Assembly: GCA_015063005.1 (NCBI GenBank)
Contig: SUTF01000008.1
Span: forward strand, 67,060-131,059
Length of the DNA: 64,000 bases
Reading direction: 5' to 3'
From: Methanobrevibacter millerae
GTDB lineage: Archaea > Methanobacteriota > Methanobacteria > Methanobacteriales > Methanobacteriaceae
The notes below the pieces were generated by a model. The model was not told where the DNA came from. It was given only the letters and a program-made list of their open reading frames with translations, and did no database searches. Positions 25,269-33,291 of the stretch are shown here, in pieces (the first letter of the stretch is position 1; every line of letters begins with the position of its first letter). A program made the position numbers and the translations under genes.

Positions 25269-27359
25269 ATGAATATAAATAATTTAATCAAATCCAGTAT
25301 AATAGTTATTTTAACGATAATAGCAAATATAGTTACAATTATCGTATTTTCCATAATATTTGATACATTTCAATTAGGAAACTGGTATAATGCCGTCATC
25401 ATAACCATTGGAGTCATCATAGCCAATACAATATTATGGCCAGTGCTGAGAAGATTATTGATGAAATTTATTGTTTTGACCTTTGGAATAGGTGCGTTAA
25501 TAATTAATTCATTGATTTTTTATGGAGTCTGCTGTCTGATTCCCGGTGTTTCACTTCAAGCAACAGATGCCTTTTTAATTCCATTGCTAATGGCTGTTGC
25601 AAGCACCCTCATCTCCAACATAGCTGATATCGACTATTATGATTTATATACTAATCGCGTAGCAGATTATGTTTCAAGAGAAAAGAAAGCATATGGATTT
25701 CCAGGCCTAATAATGCTTGAAATTGACGGACTTTCAATTGATATCCTAAAAGAGGCTATTGATAGAAACATGATGCCTACACTTAAAAAATGGATAGATG
25801 AAAATTCCCATACATTGAAAGAATGGGAAACAGATTTATCATCCCAAACAGGAGCAAGCCAAGCGGGAATATTGCATGGAAACAATGAAGATATTGTTGC
25901 CTACAGATGGGTTGAAAAAGAAAACAACAACCAGATTATGATATCTGGAAAATTGGCTCATGCCCCGATAATTGAAGAGAGAATATCTAATGGGAACGGA
26001 CTGTTATGTGATAAAGGGACCAGCATAACAAATATGTTTACTGGTGACAGTGCCAATCCGATATTAACATCATCAAGATTTAAATTATTGGTAAATAGCT
26101 ACAACAAGTCATTGAATGTGGTATTTCTGGAGTCATACTCATTCCAAAGAATAATCATTTTATTCCTTTGGGAAATATTTGTTGAGGTAAAATCCCAGAT
26201 AATGCACAAAATAAAAGATATAAGGCCTAGACTAAGGAGAAATATTATTTATGCAACAATCCGAGCAGGCGCAAATGTACTTTTGCGTGAAGTTGCAACA
26301 GAAACGTTAATTGCAGACATGCTAAAGGGAGAGATTAACAGTGCCTATGCAAGTTATGTGGGCTATGATGAAGTTGCACACCATTCAGGAATTAATGATG
26401 ATGATGTTTGGAATGTCTTAAAACAGATCGATTTGCAATTTAAAAGACTTGAAAAAGCTGAAAAAAGTTGTGACAGAAATTATGAATTCGTGGTGTTATC
26501 TGATCACGGTCAGGGAAATGGTGAAACATTCAAACAAAGATACGGCATAACTCTGGCCAATTATGTTAGAAGGCTGCTTCCGGAAGATATGAAAATTTAT
26601 GATAAGAATCCTTTTATTTCAGACCACTTTAGAGATGCATTCATTCCGGAAAATAAGCAAATTGGAACAATAATGGATAAGGTTGATGATATTAAAGATA
26701 AGGATTTCTTTTCAGACACTATTGAAAATATAAAGGAAAAAACTCCTGATTTCATAAATATTGAAGAGATTAAATCAAAATACCAAAATAATCTTGACTA
26801 TATTAAAACCCATGAAAGTAAAGAACAATCAACGAAAAAAGCAAAAAATTCAGAGTTGATAGTGTTGGGTTCCGGAAATTTAGGGTTGATTTACTTAACG
26901 CAATGGTCCAAACGGTTGAATTATGAAGAGATTGTAATGCTGTTTCCAAATTTGATTCCTGGCCTTGTTAAGCATAGTGGAATAGGATTCATACTGGTTG
27001 ATTCATTCACCAACGGCCCAATGGTTATTGGTGCTGAAGGGATTTATTATTTGAATACGGACAGGATTGAAGGAAAAAATCCATTGGAAGACTTTGGGAA
27101 AAATGCTGCAATGCATTTGAAAAGACACAATAAATTCAAACACATGCCCGATATTTTAGTCAACAGTTTTTATGACCCGGAAACAGAAGAAATCTGTGCA
27201 TTTGAGGAATTGATCGGCAGCCATGGAGGCTTAGGCGGAAGTCAAACAAGACCATTTATATTATATCCTTCAGATTGGAATGATCCTGGTGAATTAATTG
27301 GTGCGAAATCAATTTATGATTTCTTAAAAAAAGAAATTGAAGAATTAAAAGACTCTTGA
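25269..27359 (+). CDS. Membrane protein: phage-holin-like N-terminus fused to type I phosphodiesterase (696 aa)
   Basis: Four hydrophobic segments (about residues 8-30, 38-55, 65-85, 95-115) resemble the phage holin 4 superfamily membrane module. The rest is an alkaline-phosphatase-fold phosphodiesterase/nucleotide pyrophosphatase domain: LEIDGLSIDIL (metal Asp), SSQTGASQAGILHGN (nucleophile region), DEVAHHSG and VLSDHGQGNGETF (metal His/Asp). A GSHGGLGGSQ segment lies near the C-terminus. Start ATG directly follows the previous stop. The 3' end overlaps the convergent sirtuin gene by 15 bases. Anchored hydrolysis of a phosphodiester or polyprenyl-linked substrate is inferred from the domains. 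Confidence 0.8.
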   Translation: MNINNLIKSSIIVILTIIANIVTIIVFSIIFDTFQLGNWYNAVIITIGVIIANTILWPVLRRLLMKFIVLTFGIGALIINSLIFYGVCCLIPGVSLQATDAFLIPLLMAVASTLISNIADIDYYDLYTNRVADYVSREKKAYGFPGLIMLEIDGLSIDILKEAIDRNMMPTLKKWIDENSHTLKEWETDLSSQTGASQAGILHGNNEDIVAYRWVEKENNNQIMISGKLAHAPIIEERISNGNGLLCDKGTSITNMFTGDSANPILTSSRFKLLVNSYNKSLNVVFLESYSFQRIIILFLWEIFVEVKSQIMHKIKDIRPRLRRNIIYATIRAGANVLLREVATETLIADMLKGEINSAYASYVGYDEVAHHSGINDDDVWNVLKQIDLQFKRLEKAEKSCDRNYEFVVLSDHGQGNGETFKQRYGITLANYVRRLLPEDMKIYDKNPFISDHFRDAFIPENKQIGTIMDKVDDIKDKDFFSDTIENIKEKTPDFINIEEIKSKYQNNLDYIKTHESKEQSTKKAKNSELIVLGSGNLGLIYLTQWSKRLNYEEIVMLFPNLIPGLVKHSGIGFILVDSFTNGPMVIGAEGIYYLNTDRIEGKNPLEDFGKNAAMHLKRHNKFKHMPDILVNSFYDPETEEICAFEELIGSHGGLGGSQTRPFILYPSDWNDPGELIGAKSIYDFLKKEIEELKDS

Positions 27360-28196
27360 AAGCCAATAATCCAATATTTCTTCAACATTTTCATCAAAAC
27401 TTATGGTTTTAGACTTATTTTCCTTAATTGCATCAGCATAATCCTTATTCAATCTGATTAAAGTGGCATTAGGATTATCATAAGTCATCTGTTCAAAAGG
27501 ATATCGTATAATGACCGGAGTGTTGAATCCAACACCTATTTCTAAAAACACGACATTTTTACCTTTAATCTTATCCAAATAATCCATATAACGTTTATTT
27601 GCCTCATGCCATTTTTCATCTTCAACGAATAAGTTGTCTTTTCTAAGATTTGTTTCCATTTCTGCACCACAAACAGGACATTTAGGAACCAAATCGGATG
27701 GAATTTTACAGTCTACAGTTTTTTCAACCATTTCCTTGACCTGACCTTCATTGTAATATAACTTATCATGACAAGCTTCGCTGCATTGGAATAAAGAATA
27801 ATCCCCTTGTGTTGCAAAGATTCTTTCATCTGCAAAGCCATTAATCCAAAACTGATGCTCCACATTTGTTGTCAACACAAAGTAATCCTTGTCCTCAACC
27901 AGTTTCAATAATTTTTTATATACATCAGTTTCTCCAACCTGATATCTATTGACGTCGATGTGTCTTGCCCAGTAAGCCCATTTTTCTTCAGGTGTTTTAA
28001 ATGGATAAAAACCTGAAGAATACATATCTTTCATGGAATACTTCTCAATGAAATCACCGAAATTATCAGTGAAACGTTTTCCAGTATATTCAACACCTGC
28101 AGCAGTCGAAAGTCCTGCACCAGCACCAATCAATATAAAATCAGCTTCATTAATCTTATCAATAGCCTTATCTAATCTTAACACGAAACGATCCAT
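27345..28196 (-). CDS. SirTM-class sirtuin, probable protein ADP-ribosyltransferase (283 aa)
   Basis: The Rossmann NAD-binding motif GAGAGLSTAAGV is at 24-35, the zinc cysteines include C173 and C176 (CPVC) with C138 and C142. In ordinary sirtuins a catalytic His follows; here the segment reads IFATQGDYSLFQC, with Gln130 in place of that His, and Asn111 is kept in TTNVEHQF. This pattern defines the microbial SirTM class, which transfers ADP-ribose to a protein rather than deacetylating it. The gene starts one base after the macrodomain gene's stop, with GGTGAT as ribosome binding site, so it is cotranscribed with the hydrolase that removes the mark. The usual lipoylated GcvH-L target gene is not adjacent. 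Confidence 0.85.
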   Translation of the reverse strand: MDRFVLRLDKAIDKINEADFILIGAGAGLSTAAGVEYTGKRFTDNFGDFIEKYSMKDMYSSGFYPFKTPEEKWAYWARHIDVNRYQVGETDVYKKLLKLVEDKDYFVLTTNVEHQFWINGFADERIFATQGDYSLFQCSEACHDKLYYNEGQVKEMVEKTVDCKIPSDLVPKCPVCGAEMETNLRKDNLFVEDEKWHEANKRYMDYLDKIKGKNVVFLEIGVGFNTPVIIRYPFEQMTYDNPNATLIRLNKDYADAIKENKSKTISFDENVEEILDYWLSRVF

Positions 28197-28197
28197 T

Positions 28198-28980
28198 TTA
28201 ATCACCAAACAATAAATTTTTATAAATCAGATAATCTTCATCAACGAATACATTAAAAATAACATGTTCTAAAGAGGACTCATTAGAATCCAAATAATCA
28301 TTGACTGTTTTAACAGCAATTTCTGCAGCCATCTTTTGAGGAAAGTTAAATACTCCCGTTGAAATGCAACAAAAAGCAATGGATTTTAAATTATATTGAC
28401 TTGCAATATCCAAACATGACCTATAGCAACTTGCAAGTCTTTTGCAATCAAGTTCACTTGGTTTGGAATTTTGAGGAATAGCCGGACCAACAGTATGAAT
28501 TACATGTTTGGAAGCTAGATTATACCCATTTGTAATTTTAGCCTTGCCTATACCCTCATCCTTATTCTGCACCTTCATTATCTTATCGCATTCCAACCTT
28601 AACTGAATTCCACTGGCTGAATGGATAACATTATCAATGCAATTATGCATCGGAATAAAACAGCCCAACAACTTAGAATTTGCCGCATTAACTATAGCAT
28701 CTACTTTCAAATCAGTTATATCCCCTTGCCAAAGCATTAACTTACCTTTAACCTCATCAATATCATCAACGCCAACAAGATTTTTTGACAATATTTCATT
28801 TGTTAAATATTCATCCTGCACCTTCAAAAATTCCTCATCAATCGGAATAGCAGGCCTTACGTTCATCAATGAGCGAAGCAGGTTCCTTTTTTGAATAACA
28901 TTTTCAGGGATTTCAATATTTTCCTGCCTTTCATCAATCAAATAATTTAAAAGATAGTTTAATTGCTGATTTGTATCCAT
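28198..28980 (-). CDS. Zinc-dependent macrodomain, protein ADP-ribose hydrolase (260 aa)
   Basis: A macrodomain occupies about residues 75-260: [34 protein letters not shown] and [10 protein letters not shown]. The cysteine-histidine cluster C107-x4-H112-x-C114 marks the zinc-containing macro class that removes ADP-ribose from proteins modified by SirTM enzymes. The first 70 residues are a helical extension typical of this class. AAGGAGG precedes the ATG, and a TATA-like ATTTAAATAT lies about 40 bases further upstream. It heads the two-gene operon with the sirtuin and is divergent from an HxlR regulator gene. Confidence 0.87.
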
Positions 28981-29051
28981 TTTTATTCCTCCTTACCCAA
29001 TTATATTATTAAATCATATTTAAATGATTTTTGTAACTTAAAAGGAACCAG

Positions 29052-29067
29052 GTTACTCTAAAGTAAC
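29052..29067. promoter_or_regulatory. Palindromic operator candidate in divergent HxlR/macrodomain promoter
   Basis: GTTACT and AGTAAC are perfect 6-base arms around CTAA. A further half-site-like GTAAC lies 15 bases to the left (29033-29037). The palindrome sits between the TATA-like elements of the divergent macrodomain and HxlR genes, the usual place for an autoregulatory HxlR operator. Binding is inferred from position and symmetry only. Confidence 0.5.
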
Positions 29068-29130
29068 GAACATGACAACAACATATTTAATATTTATTAA
29101 AATTAAAATTAAAATCATAGGTGATTTTCC

Positions 29131-29508
29131 ATGTCCAACGAAATAGTATGTCCAGTAGATAGAACAATGAATTTAATTAATAAAAAATGGAGTATTCAAA
29201 TAATTAGAGACTTATTTTTTGGAAAAAAACATTTTAAAGAATTTAAAGAAGGAAAAGACATTAGCAACAAAGTTTTATCCAGTTGTTTAACAGATTTAGA
29301 AGAAAATGGAATAATAGAAAAGAAAGTTTTGAATACGAAACCTGTAAGTACCGAATATTCATTAACAGAATATGGAAAATCCATGAATAGAATCATTTAT
29401 GAATTAGCAATGTTTACATTGAATGATGAAAAAGACAGAGTTTACAGTGACAAAACAAAGGAACAGATGAAAAAAGATTTTAAACAAACATTGGAAATTG
29501 ATGATTAA
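29131..29508 (+). CDS. HxlR-family winged-helix transcriptional regulator (125 aa)
   Basis: The family signature is plain: CPVDRTMNLINKKWSIQII at the start, LFFGKKHFKEF, the recognition region SNKVLSSCLTDLEENG, and YSLTEYG near 88-94. Cys7 matches the redox/electrophile-sensing N-terminal cysteine found in YodB/HypR-type members; a second cysteine is at 52. AGGTGA precedes the ATG. The gene is divergent from the macrodomain-sirtuin operon with a palindrome between, so it probably controls that operon, itself and possibly the cbiE gene that follows one base after its stop. Confidence 0.87.
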   Translation: MSNEIVCPVDRTMNLINKKWSIQIIRDLFFGKKHFKEFKEGKDISNKVLSSCLTDLEENGIIEKKVLNTKPVSTEYSLTEYGKSMNRIIYELAMFTLNDEKDRVYSDKTKEQMKKDFKQTLEIDD

Positions 29509-29509
29509 T

Positions 29510-30157
29510 ATGTCTGGAAAAATATTTATTATAGGAATAGGACCTGGTGCTGAGGAATATTTAACTTTAAAAGCAGTGAACTGTGTAAAAAATTGCGATT
29601 ATACCGTAGGAAGTACAAGAGCCATAGACTTATTCAGTGATGTGAAAAATACAATTGCATTCAATGTTAAGGATTTACTGGATAAATTGGAAGAAGGTGT
29701 TGATTTGGCCATCAAAGGCAATAGCGTTGCTATCCTATCAACAGGAGATCCAGGATTTTCCGGAGTTTTAAATACAGTATTAAGGATTTCTGATGAAAAA
29801 GGATTATCAAAAGACAATATCAAAGTAATTCCCGGAATAAGTTCTCTTCAGCTTGCAGCTGCCAGAAATCATATCCAATGGGATAGCGCTAATGTAATGA
29901 CATTCCATGGAAGGGAAAATGTAGAAGACATCCTGGAGGTCATTGATAATGGAAAGACAACGATAGCACTTCCTTCAAGAAAAGTCAAGGACATGGCACA
30001 ATTTTTGCTTGACAATGGAGTTAGCGAATCAAGGAAAGTTACGGTTTGTGAGAGACTTTCATATCCTGATGAAAAAATTGTCTCAACATCACTGAAAGAT
30101 ATTGCGACAAGCGAATTTACTTATATGTGCATAATGATAATAGAAGGTAAAAATTGA
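29510..30157 (+). CDS. cbiE: Cobalt-precorrin-7 (C5)-methyltransferase CbiE
   Basis: CbiE transfers a methyl group from S-adenosylmethionine to C5 of cobalt-precorrin-7 in anaerobic corrinoid synthesis, needed for methyltransferases of methanogenesis. Tetrapyrrole methylase signatures are GIGPGAEEYLT, STGDPGFSG, PGISSLQLAAA and the late GKTTIALPSRK. Length 215 fits the single-domain CbiE. I start at ATG 29510 (MSGKIFIIGIG), one base after the HxlR stop. No CbiT or other cobalamin gene is adjacent, so it is dispersed. Confidence 0.88.
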   Translation: MSGKIFIIGIGPGAEEYLTLKAVNCVKNCDYTVGSTRAIDLFSDVKNTIAFNVKDLLDKLEEGVDLAIKGNSVAILSTGDPGFSGVLNTVLRISDEKGLSKDNIKVIPGISSLQLAAARNHIQWDSANVMTFHGRENVEDILEVIDNGKTTIALPSRKVKDMAQFLLDNGVSESRKVTVCERLSYPDEKIVSTSLKDIATSEFTYMCIMIIEGKN

Positions 30158-30276
30158 TGTTAAAAATTCATTTTAATAAATATTTTCTTTTTAAATTTTA
30201 AATTAAAACCTTTATAATGGAAAAATCATAGTTTCAGTGTTAATTTGTCAAAAAAATTAACGGTTTGGTTGATACT

Positions 30277-33200
30277 ATGATTAAAAAAATAAGCACAATA
30301 GTCTTTATTTTCCTAACTATTTTTTTAATTAGCTCTGTTTCAGCAACAGAATTGGAAAATAAAACAATAACAACGGAAAGTAACACACAAGACATTCAAA
30401 TTGAAAGTCATGATGTGGAAATGTATTATAAAGACGGAACACGATTCAATACGCAGATACACGACGAAAACAAAAATCCATTATACAATGCTACGGTGAC
30501 ATATTCATTAAATGGAATGAATTATACTCGCCAAACAAATGAAAACGGCGAATCATCATTAGCAATCAATTTGGAAAGTGGAAACTATAGCATAACGACA
30601 ATGTCAAATGAAGTATCAGTTACTAACAACATTGATGTTAAAAGTACCATCTATTCATCAGATATTGTCAAAATATACAGAAACTCAACGCAATATTATG
30701 CCAAATTTCTAGACAATAATGGTGAATTGCTAAAAAATACTCCAGTGACATTCAACATCAATGGAGTTTTCTACACAAGAACAACTAATGAAAGCGGAAT
30801 AGCTAAATTGAATATAAATCTGAATCAAGGCGAATACATTTTAACAGCAATGAACAGCAAAACAACGGAAATGAAAAGCAACAAGATTACAGTTCTTCCA
30901 TTAATCACAAGCAACAGGGACGTGGTGAAGTATTATAAAAACGCTACAAAATACTCTGTTACAATACTTGAAAAAAATGGAGAAAAGGTCGGATCAGGCC
31001 ATGACGTTGAATTTAATATAAACGGTGTGTTTTATTATCGTCAAACTGATTTGTATGGAGTAGCTAGTCTGAATTTAAATTTAGAACCTGGAGAATATAT
31101 TATAACGGCACAGTATGAAAGCTGCAGAGTGTCAAACAATATTAAAATACTGCCTACACTAACTGCAAAAGATGTCAGGATGGAGTATAAAGACGGGACA
31201 AAATTTAAAGTCCATTTGGTTGATGGCATTGGAAAGAATTCCGAATATGAACAAATAACATTCAATATCAATGGAGTATTCTACACAAGAACAACAAATG
31301 AGAATGGAATAGCTAGCTTAAATATAAACCTTGATGTTGGAACATACATCATTACTTCAGAGCATAATGGCCTTAAAGTATCAAACACCATCACAATAGA
31401 ACCTAAATCCGAAAAAGAAGTTATTAAAAATAATAACTTTACCTATGAAATTGCAGTGCCGAATTATGTGAATATTACATGTCCTTACGCTTATGAAAAT
31501 AGCGCATATACTATTCAAAGCGGTTATAACGGAATTATAAGGCTTGAGAAAAATCAACTCATTAATATTGAGGTAGGATATAAAAATTATATCTTTTCAA
31601 CAGGTTATATGCCCGAATATAGTGCCACATATTTAGGTAGCGAATATTATCTATTGCCATTTGACAATACTCCAACTCAGCATAGCTACAAGTATGAAAA
31701 ATTGACTGGAAATGGATTAATATTATATAGAAGCTCAAATTATACCCATTTTATTTACAGGAACAACTGCAGCAGCAATGTTGAACAGTTCGGAGCATAT
31801 ATCGATAAAGGTATGGACAATAGCGAAATAATCAAGTATATTCAAAATGGAGAAACTGTTGCAAAAGTCCAATTCCAAACAATGAGCTTTGATGAAATGG
31901 GTTTAAAGTACAGTTTATCCAAGCTTTATGGATGTACAATATATGATTTTGATACAAAAAGCTATGGAGAAATAACAAAAGGAAATATCGACAGCATTAG
32001 ATTTGTAAATACCAATACTGAAGTCATATTTGATTATTTTGGAAAGAAAATTGTGGGAGACATTATTGAAGAAAACATAATAACAAAATTTAATGCCTCA
32101 AACTGCATAGAATTTGAAAAGGAAGAATTGATAACCTATGGATTAAGTGACAAATATAAACGGGATTTTGATGTATTGCAATCATTTGCCCTTATAAACA
32201 AGAAAATTGACGATAAAATAATGAATGAATGGCTTTTAAAAGAAAATGATTATAGGACTGATTCAGGAATGCAAAGCATACATGCCATGTTTATAACTTC
32301 CCTCAATACAGCTTATCTAAGTGATAAGCTAGCGGATGAATTGACTACCACTTATGCTGTTAGATGGTCAAGAACAAACAATACAGTCATTCTTGGAGCA
32401 ATGAACTGGAAAGATACCTATCAGCACATCCTAACTCCAAATATGGGTAGATTTGTTGAAGGAGATAATGAAAGTGAAATTATAAATTATCGCTTTGCCA
32501 ATTCCATACTTCTCTCAAAAATAGAACAGGCCAGTTTAAAACCGATAGCTGAGGATGCCGACGTTAACATTACCTCAGTATTTGACGATGTTTTCAAATC
32601 ATTGGCTTCATTTAAAACCAGCATTGTATACTATAACAATAGTGCAATTATAACCAATGAAAATGGAAATTCAAGCTTCATAATTGATTTAAATACTGGA
32701 TTAGTAACTCCATTATTAATAAAGGACAACTTTGCATACAAGGGAGTTACAATAACAAGAGACTGCGGATTGTGTAGCATAAATAGCATGGTAAAAAATG
32801 TTATGATGAACGTCAATAATGGAATTTTTAATCCGAACGGCGTACTAGACTACATCAGCGACAATATTCAACCATTAACCTCCTTTGCCATTAAAGGAAC
32901 TATGATATTGAAAGGAATAGTTGGAGCTTTGATTGGAGGAAGCTTAACAGTTGGATTATCCGTATTTGGAACCGCAATCAGTATTCAAGGTATTGGAGTA
33001 TACTGTGTAGACAAATTCGTTGAAGAGAAAGACATCCATACAGCATACGACTACATTACATTTACAAGGCCAGGTTACCTACAAAATACCAAAATCTACA
33101 ATATTCCTCATGAAGACGGAAGTATGGATTATATTGAAATTCCAATAAACAAAGATAATTCCTATGACCGTGAAAACGTGAAATATATAAGTGAAGGCAA

Positions 33201-33291
33201 TGTTAAAATATTAACTAAACAAGAAACTTATAAATATTTCACAGAAGAAAATTGGAGTCCTTATAATGTCCCGCAAAAATACTGGAGATGA
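30277..33291 (+). CDS. Secreted Ig-repeat protein with large uncharacterised C-terminal domain (1004 aa)
   Basis: The ATG at 30277 starts a signal peptide (IKKISTIVFIFLTIFLISSVSA). Residues about 38-385 hold four Ig-like repeats of the family seen in neighbouring adhesins; the first begins DVEMYYKDGTRF, the middle two DIVKIYRNSTQY and DVVKYYKNATKY, and the fourth DVRMEYKDGTKFK. The remaining about 600 residues match no family I recognise. They contain scattered cysteines (CGLC near 830), a Gly-rich hydrophobic hairpin-like stretch (residues about 870-915) and a polar tail ending in WSPYNVPQKYWR. Here the repeats are at the N-terminus with the unusual domain outermost in sequence, the reverse of the other surface proteins. 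A small membrane protein gene follows 4 bases after the stop. Confidence 0.85.
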   Translation: MIKKISTIVFIFLTIFLISSVSATELENKTITTESNTQDIQIESHDVEMYYKDGTRFNTQIHDENKNPLYNATVTYSLNGMNYTRQTNENGESSLAINLESGNYSITTMSNEVSVTNNIDVKSTIYSSDIVKIYRNSTQYYAKFLDNNGELLKNTPVTFNINGVFYTRTTNESGIAKLNINLNQGEYILTAMNSKTTEMKSNKITVLPLITSNRDVVKYYKNATKYSVTILEKNGEKVGSGHDVEFNINGVFYYRQTDLYGVASLNLNLEPGEYIITAQYESCRVSNNIKILPTLTAKDVRMEYKDGTKFKVHLVDGIGKNSEYEQITFNINGVFYTRTTNENGIASLNINLDVGTYIITSEHNGLKVSNTITIEPKSEKEVIKNNNFTYEIAVPNYVNITCPYAYENSAYTIQSGYNGIIRLEKNQLINIEVGYKNYIFSTGYMPEYSATYLGSEYYLLPFDNTPTQHSYKYEKLTGNGLILYRSSNYTHFIYRNNCSSNVEQFGAYIDKGMDNSEIIKYIQNGETVAKVQFQTMSFDEMGLKYSLSKLYGCTIYDFDTKSYGEITKGNIDSIRFVNTNTEVIFDYFGKKIVGDIIEENIITKFNASNCIEFEKEELITYGLSDKYKRDFDVLQSFALINKKIDDKIMNEWLLKENDYRTDSGMQSIHAMFITSLNTAYLSDKLADELTTTYAVRWSRTNNTVILGAMNWKDTYQHILTPNMGRFVEGDNESEIINYRFANSILLSKIEQASLKPIAEDADVNITSVFDDVFKSLASFKTSIVYYNNSAIITNENGNSSFIIDLNTGLVTPLLIKDNFAYKGVTITRDCGLCSINSMVKNVMMNVNNGIFNPNGVLDYISDNIQPLTSFAIKGTMILKGIVGALIGGSLTVGLSVFGTAISIQGIGVYCVDKFVEEKDIHTAYDYITFTRPGYLQNTKIYNIPHEDGSMDYIEIPINKDNSYDRENVKYISEGNVKILTKQETYKYFTEENWSPYNVPQKYWR

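Follow-up and report, generated by a model that had tools for sequence, protein, structure and literature searches.

The stretch of DNA analysed here, called the window below, comprises 64,000 nucleotides of Methanobrevibacter millerae contig SUTF01000008.1 (67,060-131,059), and all feature coordinates are window positions. It carries adjacent genes for a class M sirtuin (SirTM) and a zinc-dependent macrodomain (Zn-Macro) and, on the opposite strand, a gene for an HxlR-type regulator; all three were located where an initial annotation had placed them. We consider it likely that the pair forms a reversible ADP-ribosylation module within an HxlR-controlled regulon for thiol and electrophile stress, joined by an operon of the ACGX type, and that its target is something other than lipoylated GcvH-L. 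The three genes, with lengths in amino acids (aa), are:

27345-28196, minus strand: SirTM, class M sirtuin (protein ADP-ribosyltransferase), 283 aa; identified by phmmer against 5A3A, structural model and signature residues
28198-28980, minus strand: Zn-Macro, zinc-dependent macrodomain (protein ADP-ribose hydrolase), 260 aa; identified by NF003163, identity to 8RSI and C107-x4-H112-x-C114
29131-29508, plus strand: HxlR/DUF24 winged-helix regulator, 125 aa, with Cys7 before Pro8; identified by PF01638, divergent to Zn-Macro

The single base noted earlier between the two enzyme genes is borne out by the SirTM ATG at 28196 and the macrodomain stop codon at 28198-28200; an alternative TTG start of SirTM four codons upstream would lead to an overlap with the macrodomain gene. 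Zn-Macro is linked to SirTM at nearly all loci of relatives, the synteny of the pair is fixed within the genus of the window, and HxlR is the divergent neighbour of Zn-Macro at 17 loci, the window's own counted.

Identity of the enzyme pair and search for its known substrate

The sirtuin matched the SirTM of Streptococcus pyogenes (5A3A) with E=1.2e-57 in phmmer, and its AlphaFold model (pLDDT 93.7) reached a TM-score of 0.93 to the same protein compared with about 0.66 at most among the deacetylases listed, while the match to Pfam SIR2 remained below the cut-off (17.3 vs 24 bits). SirTMs have been delimited by equivalents of Asn118 and Arg192 and by a GVGx[NT]TP motif (PMC4518038), to which Asn111, Arg185 and GVGFNTP at 221-227 correspond here. 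Asn111 and Gln130 had been correctly numbered in the initial annotation, and the remaining class M residues, including the zinc ligands Cys138, Cys142, Cys173 and Cys176, are likewise present. In an alignment of 16 SirTMs, Asn111, Arg185 and the four cysteines are invariant and GVGFNTP is conserved; equally invariant is the QG motif formed by Gln130 and Gly131, in which Gln replaces the catalytic His. On the basis of motifs and fold, a deacetylase sirtuin was rejected, and the protein would be expected to act as an ADP-ribosyltransferase without deacylase activity. Weak second sirtuin matches of about 250 aa, found in the window's own genome and in most genomes of the family, look like a separate, canonical sirtuin.

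The macrodomain scored 356 bits against NF003163, the NCBIfam model of protein-ADP-ribose hydrolases (cut-off 272), and aligned gap-free with 65% identity to MorMacro of Methanobrevibacter oralis (8RSI, E=2e-114). Both the previously described Cys-x4-His-x-Cys cluster, found as the zinc loop Cys107/His112/Cys114, and a NAAN motif at 98-101 are present, and the enzyme would be expected to hydrolyse Asp/Glu-linked ADP-ribose in a zinc-dependent manner. By these sequence comparisons, the pair is confirmed as real and not a chance similarity. According to Ariza et al. 2024 (PMC11490716), MorMacro, solved in the crystal structures 8RSI, 8RSJ and 8RSK, stems from a minimal operon in which Zn-Macro and SirTM are the sole genes. 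It cleaves Asp/Glu-linked ADP-ribose off PARP1 E988Q but is unable to demodify ADP-ribosylated SpyGcvH-L; the authors call the targets and the physiological role of pairs outside the extended operon elusive. Given that this type of pair has already been published, an archaeal pair whose target is unknown is no novelty.

The bacterial target had been described as a GcvH-like protein encoded alongside the pair, which applies to the extended operon of some Bacilli but not to the bacterial relatives nearest to the window's SirTM, which are likewise minimal pairs. In agreement with the absence noted in the annotation, neither GcvH nor the lipoate ligase LplA2 was found in the window's own genome (2.16 Mb), an absence that is not absolute because this genome is only 89.5% complete. 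Furthermore, no true GcvH was found in a search of 139 Methanobacteriaceae genomes. The listed matches were weak and lay almost all in carboxylase-type frames of about 570 aa that resemble pyruvate carboxylase, and the existence of either protein, GcvH or GcvH-L, at another place was therefore rejected for both genome and family. The only BPL/LplA-family gene of the own genome adjoins pyruvate carboxylase A and is a biotin ligase, which excludes it as a lipoate ligase, and a biotinyl/lipoyl domain was found just once, as the AMKMEN tail of pyruvate carboxylase B. Since no GcvH or lipoate ligase was found here and no true GcvH in the family, the known SirTM substrate is missing and, judged by gene content, the target of the pair is probably not lipoylated GcvH-L.

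SirTM occurs in 75 of the 139 family genomes, confined to four genera. In genus g9, a second sirtuin directly follows SirTM (L036:9009-9911, L044:8603-9466, L051:1984-2844, G030:C199); it carries Asn for Gln130 and Thr for Arg185, has lost GVGxNTP and retains the zinc cysteines, and its changes are concentrated at third codon positions. It may be either a pseudo-SirTM that has been maintained or an enzyme whose chemistry is altered. A second, divergent but complete SirTM of 38% identity was observed in a genome of the same genus at locus L050 (G046:C16:23672-24481), without an adjacent Zn-Macro, with several HxlR genes around it and about 17 kb from the ACGX cassette of that genome. Some archaeal genomes hold SirTM frames that are split, frameshifted or divided between contigs (G007:C97, G029, G031:C17, G034:C5), and in G007 an intact Zn-Macro lies next to the broken SirTM. 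Finally, two SirTM loci are near-identical although their genomes have been assigned to different genera (L037 in G018:C61 and L038 in G126:C3), which reflects either a recent transfer or a contamination of the G018 assembly, which additionally holds a g9-type locus of its own.

A predicted operator shared with the ACGX operon

The regulator is a normal DUF24 member (72.8 bits against PF01638, cut-off 20.8). Its Cys7 had been called sensor-like; a sensor role is plausible, but a Cys before Pro is found in nearly all HxlR relatives listed, and Cys7 is therefore a family trait and no special feature of this protein. HxlR proteins of the formaldehyde type possess a cross-linking Cys-x-Lys pair (Cys11/Lys13, PMC7835342). 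Here Val9 stands at the Lys position, and a formaldehyde sensor was rejected for the lack of a Lys two residues after the Cys.

The promoter region that the regulator had been said to share with the pair was confirmed as a divergent promoter of 150 bp. Its arrangement is kept across the genus and consists of the TATA-like ATTTAAAT and, after it, two 16-bp sites of the type GTnAC-N6-GnAAC:

29052-29067, no strand: predicted HxlR operator GTTACTCTAAAGTAAC with perfect half-sites; palindromic and conserved
29033-29048, no strand: imperfect second copy GTAACTTAAAAGGAAC of the operator, its start 19 bp ahead of that of the first; a block conserved among relatives when their promoters are aligned
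29018-29025, minus strand: ATTTAAAT, probably the TATA box for transcription of Zn-Macro and SirTM; a conserved block in the genus alignment

The predicted operator is the only relaxed match within the window. In its exact form, GTTAC-N6-GTAAC occurs three times in the genome: in the Zn-Macro/HxlR promoter, as GTTACTTTAAAGTAAC beside a second HxlR gene in the promoter of an ACGX operon on contig C7, and inside an adhesin-like gene (L074), where it was taken as chance. The relaxed operator was found in 15/17 promoters of the divergent SirTM type and in 18/20 of those upstream of ACGX genes, for which dinucleotide shuffles gave an expectation of 0.01 per set. It also lies about 35-120 bp upstream of Zn-Macro in genera g9 and g12, where no HxlR gene is adjacent, giving 27/39 loci in all. 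Across 814 kb of archaeal loci, 53 of the 63 operator matches fall in Zn-Macro, HxlR or ACGX promoters, a contrast between promoters and their own flanks, since the loci were chosen around those genes. The recognition region is near-identical in both HxlR proteins and in a third paralogue near the cassette. HxlR may bind the GTTAC/GTAAC site and respond to a redox signal.

The ACGX operon is unlinked to the pair and comprises the following genes:

L252 7490-11045, contig C7: second HxlR gene (HxlR2), ACGX-repeat peptide, radical-SAM/SPASM maturase, zinc dehydrogenase, PNPOx-ferredoxin flavoprotein

The maturase scored 570.6 bits against TIGR04340 (cut-off 400). The peptide remained below the cut-off of TIGR04341 (18 vs 28 bits); about ten ACGSD repeats are visible on inspection, and relatives carry peptides of the same family. 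The zinc dehydrogenase is of the quinone-reductase type, and the PNPOx protein carries two 4Fe-4S motifs. Several bacteria have the ACGX cassette in one operon with Zn-Macro and SirTM. In one of them (G421, locus L244), ACGX peptide, radical-SAM enzyme, dehydrogenase, PNPOx-Fer4 protein, Zn-Macro and SirTM form one run, the order of which equals both methanogen operons placed end to end, with the same first four genes in order as at L252. At bacterial loci without the maturase, the PNPOx-Fer4 type can still precede Zn-Macro and SirTM. In genus g12, which includes Methanosphaera (L035, L037, L041, L042, L045), the pair lies without an adjacent HxlR gene in an operon-like run with glutathione peroxidase, flavodoxin, carboxymuconolactone decarboxylase-family, cupin and hydrolase genes.

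Beyond the regulator, the listed frame of a tetrapyrrole (cobalamin-type) methylase at 29498-30157 overlaps the end of the HxlR gene, and downstream of it a large secreted protein with Big_1/Big_3_5 Ig-like repeats is encoded at 30265-33291.

Proposed regulon, origin and target of the pair

The two modules occur together in archaea and bacteria more often than their overall frequencies would predict, although all co-occurrence p-values given here ignore shared ancestry. SirTM is present in 30/33 maturase-bearing Methanobacteriaceae compared with 75/139 overall (p=3.6e-7), and in 18/18 maturase-bearing genomes of the window's genus (p=3e-4). The bacterial sample consisted of 398 genomes of one phylum, drawn regardless of either gene, and was reduced to 397 by exclusion of the centre genome; within it, SirTM was found in 5/8 maturase genomes compared with 20/397 (p=9.8e-6). 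In three of these five genomes both genes lie within about 3 kb, and in a sixth bacterial genome (G516) Zn-Macro stands beside the cassette at a contig end. Conversely, the maturase was found in 9/50 SirTM-bearing bacteria and in 8/397 genomes of the sample (p=1.7e-5), two sets that differ in taxonomy, and in 7/80 loci collected by SirTM alone. On the SirTM tree, obtained by a quick search without bootstrap, the maturase-linked loci are scattered, with 9 changes for 10 linked rows, of which at least six are forced by supported branches, which argues for a linkage that arose or was kept repeatedly. The archaeal sequences are divided into several groups that lie among Bacillota, with 4 changes of which at least two are forced by supported branches, a pattern that points to repeated transfer from gut bacteria. 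On the tree of the maturase, the rows of archaea and those of bacteria are almost completely separated. The regulon was probably acquired from gut bacteria.

Given the operator common to both methanogen operons and the single operons of bacteria, we regard the pair as one arm of a regulon. SirTM would attach ADP-ribose from NAD+ to a carboxylate of the target protein, and the co-transcribed Zn-Macro would remove it. HxlR would sit on the palindromic operator between both divergent promoters, and electrophiles or disulfides reacting with its N-terminal Cys7 would alter its hold on both. The same operator and an HxlR paralogue would control the unlinked ACGX operon, which may thus be expressed together with writer and eraser and serve a common physiological purpose.

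Several observations weigh against this reading. The association of maturase and SirTM is not significant inside g9 alone or g12 alone, the disregard of shared ancestry affects every p-value above, and the archaeal operator was not found at the bacterial loci. Furthermore, the ACGX maturase is missing in 45/75 SirTM-bearing archaeal genomes and in about 80% of the SirTM-bearing bacterial genomes tested, and some genomes (G115, G120, G125, G230, G470) have the maturase without SirTM. As each module occurs without the other in many genomes, the two are separable.

This separability leads to the strongest alternative, in which nothing but co-regulation joins the two stress modules, without biochemical contact, and the target is an unrelated housekeeping protein conserved in all carriers. 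It also agrees with the habit of HxlR promoters to gather stress genes of many kinds and is compatible with the regulon part of our favoured explanation. However, the repeated operon formation in distant bacteria exceeds what co-regulation needs, and the PNPOx-Fer4 gene joins either module; we therefore lean slightly against this alternative, which may well be correct nonetheless.

A more specific proposal takes the ACGX product for the substrate or effector of SirTM and Zn-Macro in those minimal-operon organisms that carry it. As a ribosomally made, cysteine-rich redox carrier it would replace lipoylated GcvH-L, with peptide and radical-SAM enzyme taking the place of GcvH-L and LplA2; ADP-ribosylation of an acidic residue would mask the thiol carrier, and Zn-Macro would release it. 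The product is a candidate by analogy with the extended operon, in which GcvH-L is completed by LplA2 and flavin oxidoreductases stand alongside, as they do in the ACGX cassette. Shared operator, operon linkage and co-occurrence point in the same direction. In archaeal repeats, the position following ACG or its neighbour is acidic (ACGSD, ACGSE, ACGEE), bacterial repeats have Asp or Glu nearby, and Zn-Macros including the archaeal one remove Asp/Glu-linked ADP-ribose (PMC11490716). Given that most SirTM genomes lack the maturase, though, the ACGX product cannot be the general target, an obligate role was rejected on the archaeal count above, and even as the target of a subset we consider it rather unlikely.

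Pyruvate carboxylase B contains the sole lipoyl-fold domain found in the genome, its biotinylated carrier domain (a single Biotin_lipoyl match), and the weak GcvH-model matches of the family resemble such domains. As these matches also occur in genomes without SirTM, and the domain shares neither linkage nor regulation with the pair, we regard it as a very improbable target. Equally improbable is a toxin-antitoxin-like pair in the manner of DarTG, with SirTM as toxin and Zn-Macro as antitoxin, for which tight coupling, the eraser gene coming first like an antitoxin, patchy distribution and the broken SirTM of G007 could be cited, but which conflicts with SirTM genes lacking a Zn-Macro within reach (L043, L050), the substrate specificity of the studied SirTM (PMC4518038), the synteny fixed in the genus and an HxlR stress promoter unlike that of a toxin-antitoxin operon.

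The shared regulon and the linkage to ACGX are, in our view, the new part of these results; they were not found in the open-licence papers searched, and an earlier description elsewhere is possible. Shared operator and linkage are also the informative part, as they give a first lead to the target of the pair where the sole known target is missing; together they narrow the candidate partners to a few that can be tested and point to a likely signal for induction. If the favoured explanation is true, one and the same response would combine reversible ADP-ribosylation with a RiPP-like peptide and a redox-sensing repressor in organisms without lipoylated GcvH, and the little studied ACGX family would gain a physiological context.

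Comparison with known systems

The minimal operon of M. oralis resembles the locus described here in gene pair, genus, the lack of GcvH-L alongside and a macrodomain 65% identical, while the parts of PMC11490716 used here mention no regulator, operator, ACGX cassette or family distribution. The extended operon of S. pyogenes and Staphylococcus aureus, comprising GcvH-L, LplA2, Zn-Macro, SirTM, OYE and LLM (Rack et al. 2015, PMC4518038), has in common with our locus a writer and an eraser with all signature residues and redox oxidoreductases nearby. It differs in that GcvH-L, LplA2, OYE and LLM are lacking here, where instead HxlR regulation and an ACGX/radical-SAM cassette within the regulon are found. 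With the YodB, QsrR and HxlR sensors of the MarR/DUF24 type (PMC8063818, PMC7835342), the regulator shares the conserved N-terminal Cys at the first helix, and TACT/AGTA half-sites occur as in YodB, with a spacing of 4 here compared with 7. The ACGX system defined by TIGR04340 and TIGR04341 in NCBIfam is matched by a maturase far above the cut-off and an adjacent repeat peptide, but here the peptide falls below the model cut-off and the system is tied to HxlR, to quinone-reductase-like and PNPOx-Fer4 genes, and to SirTM and Zn-Macro.

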